A DNA stretch of 64,000 bases from Rhodopirellula sp. P2 (GTDB lineage Bacteria; Planctomycetota; Planctomycetia; Pirellulales; Pirellulaceae), in assembly GCF_028768465.1 (NCBI RefSeq), contig NZ_CP118225.1:2213001-2277000 (forward strand). The letters run 5' to 3'. A model generated the notes under the pieces. The model did not search any database and had not been told where the DNA came from. It saw only the letters and a program-made list of their open reading frames with translations. A program made the position numbers and the translations under genes. Shown piece by piece: positions 42,552 to 50,861 of the stretch (position 1 is its first letter; the number at the start of each line of letters is the position of its first letter).

Positions 42552-42685
42552 GCTAACGAAGCTGTTGAGGGAAAGGCGAAAGACGGTCTGCCGTCATCGT
42601 AACGCGACGCAAAATCTCTACAATCTTGCCTTCCTCGCTTTCTTCCCGGCTCGATTTGCCTCCCCCTAACGGATCCAGCACCTGC

Positions 42686-44707
42686 ATGGCTGCGACGACA
42701 AACAATTTCGATGGACTTCGCGTGGCCGCTTTGGAGAGCCGACGTGCCGACGACATGACCCGCCTGATCTGTAAATTCGGCGGTGAAGCGTTTGTCAGCC
42801 CTTCGATGCGCGAAGTCCCGATCGAGCCCAATCGGGCAGCAATTGACTTTGCCTATCGGATCATCACTGGCGATATCAGCATTGTGATCGTGATGACCGG
42901 CGTGGGGTTTCGGTACCTGCTCAAAGCCACCGAAAAACACGTCGAGCAACAGCGGCTGATCGATGCTCTCAGCGATATCACGACGATCTGTCGAGGCCCG
43001 AAACCCGTGGCGGTGATGCGCGAGTTTGGGCTGAAGCCGACTCACCGCGTGCCCGAACCGAACACCTGGCGGGAACTGTTGCAAACGATCGACGCGGGGA
43101 TCCCAATCGCCAATCAGACCATCGGGATCCAAGAGTACGGGGTCAGCAACACGCAGTTGATCGCCGGCCTGGAAGCTCGCGGTGCGATCGCCGAATCGGT
43201 CAAAGTTTACGGCTGGGAATTCCCGGAAGACACACAGCCTCTGAAGGCCAACACACTGGCTCTGGCCGAGGGCGAACGAGACATCTTGCTGGTCACCAGT
43301 GCTCATCAAGTTGTCAACTTGCTTCGGATGGGCGAAGAACTGGGCGTCACCGATACGCTACGCGACGGGTTGTCCAAGACTGCCATCGTGTCGATTGGGC
43401 CCACGACCAGCGACATGTTGCGGGAGCATGATTTGACCGTTGCCATGGAACCTTCGCATCCCAAAATGGGCCACCTCGTCAGCGAGTCGGCTCGCGAAGC
43501 CAAACGTTTGGTCGACGAAGTTCGTTCGCAATCGTCCGCCACTCGAACGTCCACCTCTCAAACGTCTGTCTCTCTGCGGGCAGATGATTCCAGTCTCATT
43601 TCTGCTAGCAAGACGCCCATGCCCGCCATCGATGATCACCCGTCCCAGTCCAGTTTGTTCATGCGTGCCTGTCGCGGTGAGCCCACACCCCGCACGCCAG
43701 TTTGGATGATGCGGCAAGCCGGTCGCTACATGCAGGAGTACCGGGCTGTTCGATCGCAGCAATCGTTCTTGGAACTCTGCGCGAATCCCAAGTTGTGCAG
43801 CGAAGTGATGTGCACGGCGGTCGAAAAACTGAACGTCGATGCGGCGATCATTTTCTCGGACTTGTTGCCGATTCTGGTCCCGATGGGATTCGACTTGGAG
43901 TTCGTCAAAGGCGACGGTCCCGTGATCCACAACCCGGTTCGTTCAGCGTCGGATGTCGACCGAGTCAAAGGCCTCGACAACCCGCAGGATCTTGGGTTCG
44001 TTTACGAAACCGTCAAGCAAACGCGAGCGGACCTGCCCGAAGGGATTCCGTTGATCGGATTCGCTGGGGCTCCGTTCACGCTGGCCAGTTACGCTATCGA
44101 AGGCGGCGGCAGTCGCCAATACAGCAGCACCAAAGCTTTGATGCGGGCCGGCGATGGTGGCTGGGCCGCGCTGATGGATCGATTGACCGATGCGATCATC
44201 GTCTATCTGAATGAGCAGGTCTCCGCGGGAGCCCAGTGTGTGCAATTGTTTGACAGTTGGGCCGGTTGTTTGTCGCCAGGTGACTACCGCGAATTTGTGC
44301 TGCCGTGGATGAAACGGATCTTGGAAGGCGTGACCCCTGGCGTGCCATTGATCAACTTCGCAACCGGCAATCCTGAATTGTTGCCTTTGCTGCGTGGCGA
44401 TCGTCGGACGGTGGTGGGTGTCGATTGGCGGATCGAACTGGACGTGGCCTGGAAACGCGTCGGGCATGACATCTCGGTCCAAGGCAACCTGGACCCGTCG
44501 GTGTTGTTGACCGATGCCAAGACCATTCGCGCGGCCGTGCAAGATGTTTTAAACAAGGCGGGCGGTCGTCCCGGACACATTTTCAATCTCGGGCACGGCG
44601 TGTTGCAACAAACCCCGGTTGAAAATGCGATCGAATTGGTCAAAGCCGTGCAAGAACTTTCGGTGCGAGACGATTTCTCAGCCGAGGATGGCGGAACGGA
44701 TTCGTGA
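42686..44707 (+). CDS. Fused uroporphyrinogen-III synthase (HemD) and uroporphyrinogen decarboxylase (HemE)
   Basis: 673 aa from ATG 42686. Residues ~1-280 have the HemD two-lobe pattern (LRVAALESRRADDMTRLI, MTGVGFRYLL, GVSNTQLIAGLEARGA, VSIGPTTSDML, EPSHPKMGHLV). After a Ser/Thr-rich linker, residues ~320-665 are HemE: TPVWMMRQAGRYMQEYR, FSDLLPI, GFAGAPFTLASYA and HIFNLGHGV. The fusion would convert hydroxymethylbilane to coproporphyrinogen III by two consecutive haem-pathway steps without releasing uroporphyrinogen III. The stop overlaps the start of the FhcB-like gene by 4 nt. Confidence 0.92.
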   Translation: MAATTNNFDGLRVAALESRRADDMTRLICKFGGEAFVSPSMREVPIEPNRAAIDFAYRIITGDISIVIVMTGVGFRYLLKATEKHVEQQRLIDALSDITTICRGPKPVAVMREFGLKPTHRVPEPNTWRELLQTIDAGIPIANQTIGIQEYGVSNTQLIAGLEARGAIAESVKVYGWEFPEDTQPLKANTLALAEGERDILLVTSAHQVVNLLRMGEELGVTDTLRDGLSKTAIVSIGPTTSDMLREHDLTVAMEPSHPKMGHLVSESAREAKRLVDEVRSQSSATRTSTSQTSVSLRADDSSLISASKTPMPAIDDHPSQSSLFMRACRGEPTPRTPVWMMRQAGRYMQEYRAVRSQQSFLELCANPKLCSEVMCTAVEKLNVDAAIIFSDLLPILVPMGFDLEFVKGDGPVIHNPVRSASDVDRVKGLDNPQDLGFVYETVKQTRADLPEGIPLIGFAGAPFTLASYAIEGGGSRQYSSTKALMRAGDGGWAALMDRLTDAIIVYLNEQVSAGAQCVQLFDSWAGCLSPGDYREFVLPWMKRILEGVTPGVPLINFATGNPELLPLLRGDRRTVVGVDWRIELDVAWKRVGHDISVQGNLDPSVLLTDAKTIRAAVQDVLNKAGGRPGHIFNLGHGVLQQTPVENAIELVKAVQELSVRDDFSAEDGGTDS

Positions 44708-45786
44708 GCGAACCGTCTGGCGTTGTTTGTCCGCTCTGTCCACTGCACTGCGATGATGTGATGGTGAACTCGGATGGATCGGTTCAGGCAAACGGATGTG
44801 AGATCGCTGAGTCGGCTGGTTCGTTGGTGACCCAAGTGGCTCGCACGGACGAGGCGATGTTGGCCCGGATCGCTGCCCGCAAGCAACCCATTCGCGTGAT
44901 CACTTCAGGTGTGGATCTGGTGGCGGCTCGGCAGTTGGTCCAGTGGCAATCCGACGGGGTGATCGAAGTTGAAATTGAATCGGATCCTTCGATCCAGGCC
45001 ATTGGAACGGTCACGCGTCGTGACGGGATCGTTGCCGCAACGCTCTCTGAAGTTGTCACGCACGCCGATTTGGTTTGGTTGATCGGTGAAGTCGATCCGG
45101 CTTGGCCGCGTTTGGAAGAAAAACTGCGTTTCGAATCCGCTCGCTCCGGGGCAACGATTGACAAGCGACAGGTGAAGCGTTGGGAGCGATGGACCGCCGA
45201 TTTCGCGGGCCGGATGCATCATGCGATCGAGCACCCGGATGAGACCGAGGCAGGATTGGAGTTCCAGACTTGGTCCCAATGTTTTCGAGACAGTTCGTAC
45301 GCCGCGATCGTGATTGGTCCGGGAGCGTTTGACGCGGAGGAAGCGGAGATGACCGCGGCGATGGTGGCGCGAATCACTCGCCGTCGCAACGAGTCGGCTC
45401 GCTGTGTGTGCGTGACCTTGGATCCCGCGGCGACGCTGCGAAGCGTGCACGCTTGGCAAACCAATGAATCTCTCAACGCGGTCTCAGTTGACGATGAGAT
45501 CGATTCCGCTCCCGTGATTCGATTGGTAGGGATCGGCCATCAAACGTCCGTCGATCGTTCGGTCGATCTGCAAATCGGTGGACGTGATCCTGGTGTGGAA
45601 AATGCGAAAGCGTTCATGCCCGCGAGTCCTTGGATGAACTCGATGGTCATCCGCGGCGACGGATCCGTGACCCTGCCGCTTCACACGCCGACGGCACTGT
45701 CAAGCGATTTCCCCACCGCCATCGAGCAACTCCAAAAGGTGCTGCCAGAGAGTAGAACAGTTGTCCCCAACTGTTCCGTCTCATAA
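44704..45786 (+). CDS. fhcB: FhcB-like subunit of formyltransferase/hydrolase complex (FwdB family)
   Basis: 360 aa. N-terminal Cys cluster CPLCPLHC (Cys9, 12, 16) and ANGCEIAE (Cys32) match the [4Fe-4S] domain of formylmethanofuran dehydrogenase subunit B/FhcB. The remainder has molybdopterin-enzyme-like alpha/beta pattern (LVWLIGEVDP, AAIVIGPGAFD). In planctomycetes and methylotrophs the Fhc complex takes formyl from the H4MPT carrier in formaldehyde oxidation. Here it stands alone after hemDE (ATGA overlap), without fhcA/C/D. The last 9 codons, SRTVVPNCSVS minus its first two, are read from the repeat at 45752. Confidence 0.75.
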   Translation: MSEPSGVVCPLCPLHCDDVMVNSDGSVQANGCEIAESAGSLVTQVARTDEAMLARIAARKQPIRVITSGVDLVAARQLVQWQSDGVIEVEIESDPSIQAIGTVTRRDGIVAATLSEVVTHADLVWLIGEVDPAWPRLEEKLRFESARSGATIDKRQVKRWERWTADFAGRMHHAIEHPDETEAGLEFQTWSQCFRDSSYAAIVIGPGAFDAEEAEMTAAMVARITRRRNESARCVCVTLDPAATLRSVHAWQTNESLNAVSVDDEIDSAPVIRLVGIGHQTSVDRSVDLQIGGRDPGVENAKAFMPASPWMNSMVIRGDGSVTLPLHTPTALSSDFPTAIEQLQKVLPESRTVVPNCSVS

Positions 45787-46492
45787 CGAACTTAGCGAGG
45801 GATGGTTCAAACTGTTTGCGTTTGGATTGGGTGGGTCGGGCGCTGGAATGTTGTGCCCCGCACACTGAACATTTGGGGACAAATGTTCTACTCTGGTTTA
45901 GTAGAACAGTTGTCCCCAACTGTTCCGTCTCACAACGATCTTGGCGGGGGAGGATTCAAACTGTTTGCGTTTGGATTGGGTGGGTCGGGCGCTGGAATGT
46001 TGGGCCTCGCACACGGAACATTTGGGGACAAATGTTCTACTCTGGTTTAGTAGAACAGTTGTCCCCAACTGTTCCGTCTCATAACGAACTTAGCGAGGGA
46101 GGATTCAAACTGTTTTCGTTTGGATTGGGTGGGTCGGGCGCTGGAATGTTGTGCCTCGCACACGGAACATTTGGGGACAAATGTTCTACTCTGGTTTAGT
46201 AGAACAGTTGTCCCCAACTGTTCCGTCTCATAACGAACTTAGCGAGGGAGGATTCAAACTGTTTTCGTTTGGATTGGGTGGGTCGGGCGCTGGAATGTTG
46301 TGCCTCGCACACGGAACATTTGGGGATAAATGTTCTACTCTGGTTTAGTAGAACAGTTGTCCTCAACTGTTTCGTCTCACAACGATCTTGGCGGGGGAGG
46401 ATTTAAACTGTTTTCGTTTGGATTGGGTGGGTCGGGCGCTGGAATGTTGTGCCCCGCACACGGAACATTTGGGGACAAATGTTCTACTCTGG
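45752..46492. repeat. Tandem array of five 149-bp REP/BIME units
   Basis: Units start at 45752, 45901, 46050, 46199 and 46348, exactly 149 bp apart; the last is 145 bp. Each begins GTAG followed by hairpin GAACAGTTG-TCCC-CAACTGTTC and ends with the inverted equivalent GAACATTTG-GGGA-CAAATGTTC followed by CTAC. The ~95-bp interior includes a G-rich GGGTGGGTCGGGCG stretch. Units 3 and 4 differ by about one base, which shows recent amplification; units 1, 2 and 5 differ more. Confidence 0.92.
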
Positions 46493-47200
46493 GGGATTCG
46501 AAACCGCACGTTCCCAATACAAGAATTCGCCCGGACGCAATTTGGCTTTGGCTGGGTTGTCCAGGATGTATTGCTGCAAATAGTGAAACTGTTCTGGGCT
46601 GCGGATGATGTGATCGAAGGGTTCCGGTTGCCAAAATGGACCGGAGGTCCCCAAGGCTTGGTTGATTTGGCGAGCTGTGTATCGCATCCAGCTTTGGCTG
46701 GCGACACTGAGGTCTGATTCTGGATAGAACTGCACGATGGCATGGACATGATTTGGCATCACCACCAATCGATCCAGTTCATACTTGGTTCCCATGTGGA
46801 ACAGCAACGCGTCGCCCACAATCTTGGCGATTTCTGGGGCGCGAAAGACGCAGGCTCCATGGCAGGCGTCGAGTGATCGATGGAATATTTGGTCGGATCG
46901 TTTTTGGAATTCGCTGCGTTGACTGGGGGCAAGCCTCGCAATCATGTCTTCGTGATTCATCAGATGACGAGTGACGGTTGATTGGGCAAGGCCGATCGGC
47001 AGTCCACGTGTCCGCAACCAGTCTTCGAGTTCACGCTGCCAACGTTGAACCACTTCGGCTGGCATCGAATCCGCAGTTCGAAACGTGACGAAAATTGCCG
47101 CTCCTGGTTGGAACCAATGAGGGAGGTTCCGCTCGCTCACGAGCAACTTCGCGCGGGGATCAAAGCTATGGAAAACCGGCGGTGGCTTGTCCTCGTTCAT
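46484..47200 (-). CDS. REP-associated tyrosine transposase (RAYT, Y1 family)
   Basis: 238 aa from ATG 47200 (a TTG one codon upstream is possible). The single-strand HUH nuclease core is visible: beta strand GAAIFVTFRT, HUH motif MPNHVHAIV (His151, His153), and the C-terminal helix with the likely catalytic Tyr211 in YILDNPAKAKL. This is the Y1 transposase_REP class that cuts and joins GTAG hairpins as single strands. The protein ends NPPE and its stop TAG is the TAG of the GTAG of repeat unit 5. A sixth unit lies on its other side, so the gene is framed by its presumed substrates. Confidence 0.9.
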   Translation of the reverse strand: MNEDKPPPVFHSFDPRAKLLVSERNLPHWFQPGAAIFVTFRTADSMPAEVVQRWQRELEDWLRTRGLPIGLAQSTVTRHLMNHEDMIARLAPSQRSEFQKRSDQIFHRSLDACHGACVFRAPEIAKIVGDALLFHMGTKYELDRLVVMPNHVHAIVQFYPESDLSVASQSWMRYTARQINQALGTSGPFWQPEPFDHIIRSPEQFHYLQQYILDNPAKAKLRPGEFLYWERAVSNPPE

Positions 47201-47271
47201 CAATGCAGTGTAGCGAACCAGGCGTTCGCAGGCATGGATTCTGAAACGTATGTTCGGAAAAACGTGTGCTC

Positions 47272-47421
47272 AGAGTGGAACCGTTGTCCTCAACTGTTTC
47301 GCTTCGCAACGATCTTCGCGAAGGGTGGTTCGAACTGTTTTCGTTTGGATTGGGTGGGTGCGGGCGCTGGAATGTCGGACCTCGCACACGGAACATTTGG
47401 GGACAAATGTTCTACTCTGGT
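47272..47421. repeat. Sixth, solitary 149-bp REP/BIME unit
   Basis: Same layout as the tandem units (GTGG in place of the first GTAG, hairpins around CCGTTG-TCCTC and GAACATTTG-GGGA-CAAATGTTC, ending CTAC) but more diverged. It lies between the RAYT start and the kinase stop. The kinase stop TAG at 47412-47414 is part of the terminal CTAC (minus strand GTAG). Confidence 0.88.
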
Positions 47422-50204
47422 GCAGCGTCGCTTTCGGATCGCTGTTTGAGGTCGTCCAGCATGGAGAGCCAGAAGGTTTTGTCGTCGTCGGTTGATTGTT
47501 GGTACATTGACTGTTTGGGCAGTGAATTGACCAGGCGTTCGAGTCGATCGTGGGCCTGTTTGGGGTGATCGACGTGAGTGGTGTAGACGGATGCCAAGCC
47601 TTCGTTGAGACGCTGCTGGAAATAGGTCAGCTGGCGAAGCCATTCGGCGTTCTGGCTGGCTTGGTATTGCCGATCCATTTCTTGGAAGCTTCGATCGAGA
47701 TGAAATGCGATCAGGGAAGGAGTTTTTGGATCGATTTCTGTCAACGTTTGGAGCACGCCGTTGAGCGTCGATCCTCTTTGCGAAAACCAGTTGAAATGCG
47801 TGAAATGCGGATGGGTCAGGGTTTCCGCGGCGAACGGAATGGGCAACTTGAGTCGACCTTCCTTTCGCATTTCGATTGCTGCGAGGAGCAGATCGTTCGA
47901 CAATAGCCATTCGGGAGGATTTGGGGTGGTGATCATTTGAGATTCGAATCCCATTCCTTCGAATTCAGCATTAGGATTGGTGTAGTCCCATTTGGTCTGT
48001 TTTGTCTCGGGATCGATCTTTCTTCGTTTGTACTTGGTAACCGCTTCATCGACCTGCTCTTCGACGTAGTCGGCGATCCATGCTGGAGGGGATATCTGTG
48101 GGCCCGATTCCTGGACGATTCGAACAGCAATTGCCCAGGCCGTTTCACGAGCGATATTAGCTTCCTCTGATAGGCTTCGCGGGTGAGGGGTGGATGTGGC
48201 TGTTGCTTCCATGGCAACAGATTTTAAGCCAGCGGACGCTGATCCAATCTGCTGAAGGAGAGTTTTGGTTTCATTTCTTCCTTCAGAGGTTCTGCTTCTT
48301 GATGCGAAAAATGCTTCAGCCGACATCCGTCTGGGTGACGAGCTCTTGTCAAAGTTCAAATCCATCACAAAGTTTCTGAGTTGCAGGAGGCTCGCGATCC
48401 TAGCTTTCTCGTTGACTTCGGCCAGCTTCAGGCCGATCGTTTGTAGTCCGGGAATCGGGAAATAGTGCGGGTACGACTCCTGGAGATGTCCCATGAATTG
48501 TCGGTCAATTGGAGGGGAGCTACTGAAGCCGCCACCCATGAATCCGCCGTGTGCGACCGGAGCGGCGACGTGCCACGTTCCGTATTCATCGGTGAGATCG
48601 AGTGTTGCTTTTGCCGCTTCAGCACGTCTTGATGTGCCACGAGAAAGTCGTTCCACGGCTCGCATGGCTCGACCGATCGCTCCTATTTCTTTTTCGCTTG
48701 CAAGTGTCTCAAGCCATGCGTCGAGATTCTTTCCTTCGTAAACGATGTCGCGGTTCGTATTTGCCAAGTCCAATTTAGAATCCTCGCGGAATCTATTTTG
48801 AAGCGTCGCAGTGGGGAGTGGGCCGTCGTCCTCCTCCACCGCAATCTGGGTGTCTTTGCCGTCGGTGGTCACCGTCACCAAACCCTTGTCGGTTTTGATC
48901 TGAATCACGACCGTTGCGAGCAAGAGGGCTGCTGCGAACCAACCCAGTGGGCCCAGCCACGCGGTCCAGTTGTGCTTGCCGCCACCCGGTGGTGGTGAAG
49001 CGGGATTCGTTGCCAGTGGGAGCGATGGTGTGATCGGTGCGTCGGACACCGGGGTCGCTTCTGCTCGCTGGAGCAAGGCTTTTAGGTTGGCATCGCTGGA
49101 CCAGGTCGCCAGTCGCTCGGCGACGATCGATCCGCTGGGACGCTGGTCGGGTTGCCGGTGCATCATCTGACCGACGAACGTTTGCAGTTCCGATTCGACC
49201 GACGGTTCCAAACTGCTCAGCGGAGGCGGAGTCGATCGATTGGACTCGCTCGTGATCGCCAACACGCGTGCCGCCAGACCGCCTTCGTTGGCATGCGGCC
49301 AACGACCTGAAATGAGTCGGTACAGGGTTGCGCCGAGCGAATAGATGTCCGACGCCGGTTGGACTTTTCGGCTGTCGATCAACTGTTCGGGCGACATCGC
49401 GGGCAAGGTGCCCATCAGGTGTCCCACGGTGGTCAGTCGGTCGTCCGTGGCCAGCGGATCGTCGCCCGCCAGGACCAAACCCAGGTCCAACAGTTTGACA
49501 GTCCCGTCTCGCGTGAGCATCAAGTTCGATGGCTTCACGTCACGGTGGATCAATCCCGTTTCATGCACATGCATCAGTGCCACGGCGGACTGGCGAGCGA
49601 TCTCGCAGGCGTCCGCGACCGGCAGTGATCCCAGTCGATGGGCGACCTTGCCGACATCCATTCCGTCCAAGTGTTCCATCACCAAGTAGTGCCATCCGGA
49701 ATGAGTGCCCGCATCGGTGGCACGTACAATTCCCGGATGTTCGAGTGCCGCGATGGTTGTCATTTCTCGGTCGAAGCGATCCAGCCAACCGGGTTCCATC
49801 ACTCGGTGAGGCGGCAGCAACTTGATCGCGCACTGCCGTTTCAGTCGATTGTGGCGAGCCAAGCACACCATCCCCATGCCGCCTTGCCCGAGTTGCCCCA
49901 AAATCTCGTAGGGACCGATTTGGTCGATGGGCAGATCGGCGGAGGCTTGCGGGGCGGCGATGTGGGCGGCCATCAAACGCGCGACCGCGAATTGGCAGGC
50001 GGATTCCGCCAGCACGGAGTCTTCCTCCGTTCCAGCTTTGGCAACCGAAGACAACGCGTCCCATTTGTCTGGGATGCGTGACTGGCATTGTTCGCACTCA
50101 TCGACGTGCTTGGATGCGGAATCGAACTCGTCAGTGGACAGTTGTCCGTCGATCAAGCGGCTCAAGTCTTCGAGGGTCAGGCAATCGGTGCTGGTGGCAA
50201 TCAT
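47412..50204 (-). CDS. Ser/Thr protein kinase with N-terminal anti-sigma-like zinc finger
   Basis: 930 aa from ATG 50204. Residues 30-41 have His33-x3-Cys37-x2-Cys40, as in zf-HC2 anti-sigma domains. The PknB-type kinase domain (~99-370) has the Gly loop GQLGQGGMG, Lys128 in AIKLL, HRDVKPSN and DLG in place of DFG. One transmembrane helix (WFAAALLLATVVIQI, ~435-450) precedes a ~480-residue extracytoplasmic part that is not recognised. The gene follows an ECF sigma factor by 69 bp, so it probably senses an outside signal and controls that sigma factor through its zinc finger or by phosphorylation. Confidence 0.88.
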   Translation of the reverse strand: MIATSTDCLTLEDLSRLIDGQLSTDEFDSASKHVDECEQCQSRIPDKWDALSSVAKAGTEEDSVLAESACQFAVARLMAAHIAAPQASADLPIDQIGPYEILGQLGQGGMGMVCLARHNRLKRQCAIKLLPPHRVMEPGWLDRFDREMTTIAALEHPGIVRATDAGTHSGWHYLVMEHLDGMDVGKVAHRLGSLPVADACEIARQSAVALMHVHETGLIHRDVKPSNLMLTRDGTVKLLDLGLVLAGDDPLATDDRLTTVGHLMGTLPAMSPEQLIDSRKVQPASDIYSLGATLYRLISGRWPHANEGGLAARVLAITSESNRSTPPPLSSLEPSVESELQTFVGQMMHRQPDQRPSGSIVAERLATWSSDANLKALLQRAEATPVSDAPITPSLPLATNPASPPPGGGKHNWTAWLGPLGWFAAALLLATVVIQIKTDKGLVTVTTDGKDTQIAVEEDDGPLPTATLQNRFREDSKLDLANTNRDIVYEGKNLDAWLETLASEKEIGAIGRAMRAVERLSRGTSRRAEAAKATLDLTDEYGTWHVAAPVAHGGFMGGGFSSSPPIDRQFMGHLQESYPHYFPIPGLQTIGLKLAEVNEKARIASLLQLRNFVMDLNFDKSSSPRRMSAEAFFASRSRTSEGRNETKTLLQQIGSASAGLKSVAMEATATSTPHPRSLSEEANIARETAWAIAVRIVQESGPQISPPAWIADYVEEQVDEAVTKYKRRKIDPETKQTKWDYTNPNAEFEGMGFESQMITTPNPPEWLLSNDLLLAAIEMRKEGRLKLPIPFAAETLTHPHFTHFNWFSQRGSTLNGVLQTLTEIDPKTPSLIAFHLDRSFQEMDRQYQASQNAEWLRQLTYFQQRLNEGLASVYTTHVDHPKQAHDRLERLVNSLPKQSMYQQSTDDDKTFWLSMLDDLKQRSESDAAPE

Positions 50205-50273
50205 GGCGGACTTTCGGTGCGAGGGATCGTTGGTTGACCACACAACGCTTGGATGGGGCGGCGATTGGACACC

Positions 50274-50861
50274 TCAGCGATGAAAATCTTCCAATTCTTT
50301 TCTCAGGCGTTGCAGCACCCGAGCGCGAGCCTTGTAGACCGTCCACCGGCTGACATTCAGTTCGCCTGCCACCGTCGCGGGATCGCAGCCTTCCACGGCG
50401 GTCCGCCAGAACATCTGCCAGGTCTTGGGATCGGTTGATTGCCTCAGGACTTGCAGCATGCGGTTCTGAATCGACTGCACATCGTCAGCCAGTTCGCTGG
50501 GCGGATCAGAGCTTTCTTGTTCCGCCCACTGCAGCGCTTCGCCATCGAGCACGATCGGAGACCGTTGGTCGGCACGTTGGCGATCGCGAAGTTTGTTGCG
50601 AGCGATCGTCCACAGCCATCCGCGAAAAGTGGCGCCCGTTTGGTCCAGATCAAACCGAGGGAGAGCCTTGGCAACCGCGAGAAATGTTTCTTGCATCACA
50701 TCCGCGGCGTCGGCCGACTGAGCCCCGCATCGGCGGATCCATCGATAGACGATCGGCCCGTAGACCTGGACCAGCATTTGCCAGCCTTCGTCGTCGCCGT
50801 AGCGGGCTCGTTCGAGCAACGAGGGATGAGTCGATGGTTCCTCGATGGTGCCGGGGTTCAT
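50274..50861 (-). CDS. ECF-type RNA polymerase sigma factor
   Basis: 195 aa. Region 2 (LVQVYGPIVYRWIRRCG, ADAADVMQETFLAVAKALPRF, FRGWLWTIARNKLRD) and region 4 (CDPATVAGELNVSRWTVYKARARVLQRLR) are clear; regions 1.1 and 3 are missing, as in ECF sigmas. No separate anti-sigma gene is nearby; the next gene is the zinc-finger kinase, as in planctomycete ECF-kinase pairs. Confidence 0.9.
   Translation of the reverse strand: MNPGTIEEPSTHPSLLERARYGDDEGWQMLVQVYGPIVYRWIRRCGAQSADAADVMQETFLAVAKALPRFDLDQTGATFRGWLWTIARNKLRDRQRADQRSPIVLDGEALQWAEQESSDPPSELADDVQSIQNRMLQVLRQSTDPKTWQMFWRTAVEGCDPATVAGELNVSRWTVYKARARVLQRLRKELEDFHR

Follow-up and report, generated by a model that had tools for sequence, protein, structure and literature searches.

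A single-copy RAYT (TnpA-REP) gene, a "domesticated" transposase gene, stands in Rhodopirellula sp. P2 among tandem REPINs that its product most likely recognises, and the locus as a whole is very probably a REPtron. It lies in a 64,000-nucleotide stretch of DNA (the window) from a 7.29-Mb single-contig genome (G000). REPIN-RAYT repeat systems are known mainly from proteobacteria; this locus is of that known kind, a well-formed planctomycete example, and REPIN-RAYT system or REPtron is a better name for it than the RAYT/BIME label of the initial annotation. By the mechanism proposed here, the RAYT would act as an HUH endonuclease on single strands: it most likely binds the GTAG-footed hairpins of REPIN DNA in its single-stranded state, and would cut and rejoin near the hairpin foot. 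Over evolutionary time such cutting and rejoining would have seeded REP pairs round the genome by transposition, with whatever benefit to the host there might be.

Anatomy of the locus and its RAYT

From left to right the locus holds an fhcB-like gene, five tandem 149-bp units, the RAYT gene on the minus strand, a sixth unit and a kinase gene (Table 1), with the five-unit array (45752-46487) on the 3′ side of the RAYT gene. Each unit consists of a 140-bp element (141 bp in unit 6), with an inverted hairpin at each end and GTAG outermost, plus a 9-bp linker. Spacings in the array are 149, 149, 149 and 149 bp, exactly as the initial annotation had described them, and the same holds for its account of a diverged sixth unit past the transposase gene (47272-47421 in the spacing comparison), of near-identical units 3 and 4, and of two inverted hairpins per unit with 9-bp stems and TCCC/GGGA loops. 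Decay of these features is small, touching the right stem of unit 4, a loop of unit 5 and the left foot of unit 6, which reads GTGG. The window contains 12 such arms, against 0 in any of 100 shuffles of it. In predicted single-stranded folding, unit 3 reaches z-scores of -7.15 (plus strand) and -7.00 (minus strand) and one unit of the congener G151 reaches -6.47; by these predictions the unit folds on itself as single-stranded DNA, which is the defining form of a REPIN.

Table 1. Coordinates of the REPtron and its neighbouring genes in the window
Feature	Position	Strand	Remarks
fhcB-like gene, neighbour	44704..45786	+	3′ end inside REPtron
REPIN unit 1	45752..45891	+	left arm 45752-45775 (+), right arm 45868-45891 (-)
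REPIN unit 2	45901..46040	+	
REPIN unit 3	46050..46189	+	predicted to fold as a single long ssDNA hairpin
REPIN unit 4	46199..46338	+	99% identity to unit 3
REPIN unit 5	46348..46487	+	right-arm GTAG (46484-46487, - strand) contains RAYT stop codon
RAYT (TnpA-REP) gene	46484..47203	-	239 aa
REPIN unit 6	47275..47415	+	upstream of RAYT gene; 82-84% identity to units 1-5 over aligned length
Serine/threonine kinase gene, neighbour	47412..50243	-	3′ end at REPtron edge

REP arms provide the TAG stops of the RAYT gene (46484-46487) and of the kinase gene (47412-47415), and the last codons of the fhcB-like gene come from the left arm of unit 1. The array does border this gene, as had been noted, while the name given to it is weak: the similarity to formylmethanofuran dehydrogenase subunit B amounts to 25.7 bits against TIGR03129, whose cut-off is 327.8. 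Among the other genes nearby, an ECF sigma factor gene (50274-50861) lies directly upstream of the kinase gene on the same strand, and positions 42626-44707 hold one 693-aa ORF combining uroporphyrinogen-III synthase (residues 23-293) with uroporphyrinogen decarboxylase HemE (345-677), apparently a fusion of HemD and HemE.

Profile searches agree with the first reading of the gene as a Y1 tyrosine transposase of RAYT type. Pfam Y1_Tnp matches it at 23.0 bits, exactly at the cut-off of 23, and PDB 4er8 (TnpA-REP) at E=2.4e-6; the best NCBIfam match is REP_Tyr_transpos (NF047646) at 60.9 bits, below a cut-off of 80 that is the curator's threshold and denotes no biological trait. Across 27 aligned sequences, 23 of which match Y1_Tnp at E<=0.01, H152-x-H154 and Y212 are invariant (27/27), and the HUH motif aligns to that of 4er8. 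The protein carries HVH at 152-154, WQ at 191-192, DH at 197-198, R201, Y212 and N216. From its position, Y212 would be the catalytic tyrosine, the counterpart of the catalytic Y115 of E. coli TnpA-REP; the offset between the two numberings is a constant 97 (W94, Q95, E100 changed to D, H101, R104, N119). The E. coli GTAG guide is read by W94, Q95, E100, H101 and R104, according to the available text of PMC6006769, and in the alignment the RAYT keeps all of these positions as W191, Q192, D197, H198 and R201, the E to D change being one that published descriptions, as far as covered, report for subclasses 2.5/2.7. The listed start codon is TTG, though translation more likely begins at the ATG that follows one codon later.

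Of the 13 Y1_Tnp matches in the genome, the 12 other than this RAYT have no hairpin of the window's family within 1.5 kb. The RAYT itself is single-copy: at E<=1e-10 the sole other match in its own genome is 30% identical. This second RAYT-like gene (L009, G000:C1:6311165-6314377) lies between two same-orientation copies of another GTAG hairpin, of GTAGGTTGGGC type. Separately, three Y1_Tnp (IS200-like) genes with identical profile scores stand about 1 kb apart at G000:C1:6437942-6440280 (L002-L004).

Hairpins, REPINs and their interiors across the genome

A pattern scan allowing up to 3 mismatches found 128 hairpins in the genome (62+66), and its reversed-pattern control found 0. The expectation that the unit would recur elsewhere is thus borne out for the hairpins, which are dispersed, while widespread units are rejected: the complete 149-bp unit has six copies, all at this locus, and the rest of the 89 BLAST matches are two decayed partial copies elsewhere (77-78%) and single arms of 27-36 nt. 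Around the matches listed we gathered 56 clusters with 133 arms in total; half of the clusters (28) consist of one arm. These include 36 inverted pairs with GTAG outward (72 of the 133 arms), whose arms start 115-121 bp apart in 30 cases, 161 bp in 5 and 211 bp in 1, as is characteristic of REPINs, in which two inverted REPs at a fixed distance form one hairpin. A conserved CA four bases before GTAG, present in 56 of 74 representative arms of this genome, is a possible candidate for the cut site.

These figures bear on whether the locus might instead be an IS200/IS605-family insertion sequence that is autonomous and ends in hairpins. A Y1/HUH domain is present, and outward GTAG hairpins bound a locus that four relatives lack at this junction; the IS200 model NF033573 nevertheless gives 18.7 bits (cut-off 55) where the REP model gives 60.9, and the gene is single-copy while its hairpins are dispersed without it. 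With one whole copy in the genome and so low a score, we reject the IS200/IS605 assignment, which is extremely unlikely.

BLAST sorts the interiors of the 36 pairs into groups of 19, 6 (this locus), 5 and 2 and four singles, so that by sequence similarity the REPINs are one chassis with several interiors, and the interior of the window type is not the commonest among the dispersed ones. As expected of REPINs, the ends are more conserved than the spacer. Between this species and G151, units of the window type have arms 94% and 99% identical and interiors 77% identical (means over unit pairs). For the dispersed type, majority fractions over 15 elements are 0.98 and 0.94 for the arms and 0.80 for the interior. 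Identity of the neighbouring DNA to G151 is 85% for fhcB, 87% for the RAYT gene and 80% for the kinase end (502 bp).

The initial annotation had suggested that the interior, with its G-rich stretch, might have a function of its own. On this account the hairpins would be secondary to an interior that works as an RNA or DNA element, as might be read from its 91% identity within the genome and from the GGGTGGG that all nine units of both species share. A special function is unsupported, however, because the interior is less conserved between the species than either the arms or the neighbouring genes. REPIN groups of equal length also have interiors without BLAST similarity to one another, and Rfam returns no family at gathering score, its 8 sub-threshold microRNA matches sitting on the hairpins. 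With an interior that diverges faster than its surroundings and varies between REPIN groups, we reject the proposal as very unlikely.

The junction, the RAYT and the age of the REP population

The fhcB-kinase junction is common to five congeners (G151, G130, G150, G152, G153), which the junction comparison covered; the other seven genomes of the genus all have fhcB. G151 has an orthologous REPtron there of 2 units, RAYT and 1 unit, against 5+1 here, so the proposed comparison of array lengths does reveal a difference between species. The junction sequences retrieved from G130, G150, G152 and G153 contain neither a REPtron nor hairpins of the family: the fhcB and kinase genes are neighbours there, separated by a homologous stretch with another ORF. 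In G130 this ORF matches Pfam PDDEXK_3 (134.8 bits), a family also named GxxExxY. At the junctions of these four relatives (L193, L218, L220, L378) the ORF is followed by a repeated palindromic element with ends GAACACTAAT / ATTAGTGTTC. Homology to the window stops on the left at 45749-45754 in G130, G150 and G153 and at 45743 in the more distant G152, and restarts at 47428 in all four; in these alignments, homology between the junctions ends at the REP edges. Because G152, the most distant of the four by fhcB (64%), is arranged like the other three, presence of the REPtron would most simply be the derived state. In the common ancestor of this species and G151, the REPtron would then have taken the place of an older PDDEXK_3-type gene lying between the fhcB and kinase genes. 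Bounded by outward REPs, it may have come in as one unit, by movement or by exchange, or else through recombination; REPtrons are reported, in the literature covered, not to appear to move as units. Afterwards the array would have gained or lost units (2 versus 5), whichever the direction, as its repeats recombined in the ordinary way or slipped, perhaps with some help from RAYT nicks.

Across a sample of 149 Pirellulaceae genomes, a RAYT match at E<=1e-10 occurs in 68 and the hairpin in 36, the reversed control giving one match in all (G056). At least 5 hairpins are found in 7 of 12 genomes with a close RAYT (at least 250 bits) versus 10 of 137 without (Fisher p=4e-5). Hairpin-rich genomes without a close RAYT therefore make up 10 of 17, and three of them (G059, G061, G117) have none even at E<=1e-10. 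At the best 30 RAYT loci, our own included, at least 2 GTAG hairpins were found at 12, 9 of these among the 10 closest, and 15 loci had no GTAG hairpin by that scan; the stems differ between loci and stay self-complementary. One further RAYT (L099, G096:C180:21864-25541) lies in a run of seven near-identical GTAGACCAATT hairpins, several about 250 bp apart.

Of 13 genomes sampled in the genus, 12 contain hairpins and 11 a RAYT at E<=1e-30, while RAYTs of at least 60% identity are confined to G000, G151 (87%) and G149 (62%), the last of which has only 4 hairpins. G130, G150 and G152 have 46, 35 and 43 hairpins, and the identity of their RAYTs along most of the query does not exceed 47%. In G153, a draft assembly in about 60 contigs that is 99% complete, 140 hairpins were counted, and a RAYT search at E<=0.01 found nothing (0 of 13 candidates passing). 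The finding in G153 comes close to what had been named at the outset as evidence against the system, units widespread in genomes lacking such a RAYT, though it does so for the hairpins and not for the 149-bp unit. What survives of the RAYT/BIME reading is a RAYT with dispersed GTAG hairpins; that the system is self-contained and its repeats RAYT-maintained is unsupported, given the confinement of the 149-bp unit to this locus, the hairpins kept by G153 and the arm counts that follow.

A match of at least 250 bp of common flank to a REP-bearing cluster in G151, G130 or G153 was found for 36 of the 56 clusters here, on both flanks for 27; the other 9 match on one flank. A single G130 locus (L331) is matched to several clusters, so some of the one-sided matches are perhaps repeats. 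These comparisons rest on listed matches (59 loci in G153, 30 in G130 and 27 in G151). The 20 clusters without a counterpart may be gains or may have been missed, since the comparison was with REP-bearing clusters. Where both flanks match, arm number differs at 9 of 19 loci in G153, 7 of 9 in G130 and 6 of 9 in G151, as counted from listed matches and partial regions. For example, clusters here have 12 arms versus 3, or 5 versus 8, in RAYT-less G153, and equal numbers at 10 of the 19. Because of the RAYT-less G153, the common clusters and the differing arm counts, the REP population looks old, with many REPs older than these species themselves, and the size of an array is not necessarily a sign of current RAYT activity.

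One possible hypothesis is that unequal recombination or replication slippage alone produced the array, the RAYT having no part in its present size. We lean slightly towards it, as the 149-bp unit is local to the site, interiors are more alike within the genome than between the two species, and arm number varies even against G153. The array nevertheless adjoins the RAYT, as in other REPtrons, and the loss of the RAYT from G153 may be recent, with past action possible and the arm counts drawn from partial lists and regions.

Hairpin feet, stop codons and known systems

In 37 of 102 RAYTs with enough sequence, the stop codon coincides with a hairpin start or lies no more than 8 nt from one, against a background of 442 of 4310 windows (10%) in which other REPs are included. 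TAG is the stop in 31 of these 37 versus 22 of the remaining 65, and GTAG stands at the stop in 39 of 102. Stops inside a REP foot are seen in the window (46484-47203) and at L075-L077, L081-L083, L086, L198, L199 and others (GTAG; GTAA in L082). A REP in this place could possibly affect RAYT translation, coupling it to the gene's own REP. REPs at RAYT stops, and stops supplied by REPs, are already in print (parts of PMC2817692 and PMC3733652).

Tree and foot counts were based on 103 non-redundant RAYTs of the 128 located (140-300 aa, duplicates removed), and a quick tree drawn with midpoint root holds the 50 of the 103 with a foot assigned. The sister group to the group of the window's RAYT comprises 19 RAYTs (SH-aLRT 90), and GTCG-footed hairpins flank 16 of the 19 as called and 18 after correction of L087 and L122, which the foot rule had called GTGG and which both read GTCGTGG. 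The GTCG loci are L087, L089, L091-L098, L102, L103, L107, L111, L122, L200, L213 and L215, with samples L379-L418. In 400-kb samples of two GTCG-group genomes, TCC-loop hairpins that combine a GTCG foot with the stem end seen at the RAYT number 5 of 8 in G006 and 6 of 9 in G028, and a GTAG foot was found in 0; GTCG hairpins are dispersed in the two genomes sampled. The GTCG register was set by analogy with GTAG: in G006, GCCT and CGCC recur in 6 of 8 hairpins and GTCG in 5, and in the G028 sample TCGT and GGTC are as frequent as GTCG.

From this association we infer that sister-group RAYTs recognise GTCG hairpins. By the published guide-pairing rule, the GTCG group might cut at CG instead of CT. 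A conserved 3′ CG occurs at 8 of 18 GTCG loci, but also at 4 of 24 GTAG loci and 1 of 7 GTGG loci, and GTAG loci show a conserved 3′ CT in 0 of 24 and a conserved 5′ CT in 2 of 24. A broader reading, offered tentatively and with some doubt, is that in Pirellulaceae the guide tetranucleotide is evolvable (GTAG here, GTCG in the sister group, GTGG/GTTG in further members) and that the REPtron moved or was swapped as a unit. Feet described in the published text covered are GTAG and GTGG, with CnGA in class 3; GTCG has no text match in the portions of PMC8266576 or PMC2817692 available, and the matches listed by a literature search for RAYT and GTCG were off-subject. New here is therefore the sister RAYT group with GTCG-footed, dispersed hairpins, absent from the published descriptions covered.

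The setting offers a graded natural experiment in a planctomycete genus: two species with the RAYT at the locus; G130, G150, G152 and G153 without it there and with many REPs; and relatives with other stems and feet. Two questions become testable, namely what maintains REP populations after loss of the RAYT, and whether the site of cutting is set by the 5′ tetranucleotide.

The locus is less exceptional than the initial annotation had stated, as Di Nocera (2013, PMC3733652) reports GTAG REPs and tyrosine transposases from Rhodopirellula baltica, and Bertels and Rainey (2011, PMC3116915) describe less conserved REPIN spacers and tandem clusters in Pseudomonas fluorescens SBW25. Like the REPtrons in the available text of PMC3733652, it has the GTAG foot, GTAG-outside dimers, tandem dimers with flanks, a REP-supplied TAG stop and a tyrosine transposase flanked by REPs; the likeness to the R. 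baltica REPs rests on these descriptions rather than on hairpin sequences. With the SBW25 system, as far as PMC3116915 was available, it shares REPs paired in inverted orientation at a constant distance, a spacer less conserved than the ends, the long single-stranded hairpin, tandem clusters of near-identical REPINs and the link to a RAYT. It differs in the distance between arm starts (115-121 bp in 30 of 36 pairs, against SBW25 peaks of 71 and 110 bp), in its 9-bp stems of other sequence, in its planctomycete host, and in that the REPINs beside the RAYT differ in interior from the commonest dispersed ones. E. coli TnpA-REP (PDB 4er8; PMC8266576 and PMC6006769, in part) has the same HUH, WQ, H, R, Y and N positions and a gene flanked by inverted GTAG REPs, whereas the RAYT here has about 90 extra residues before the matched region and D in place of E100, and its hairpins have perfect 9-bp stems without the E. 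coli bulge. The nearest motif set in the published descriptions covered is that of subclass 2.7 ([ND]HVH, WQ, YI[LR][NQ]NP), where the RAYT here reads YILDNP.
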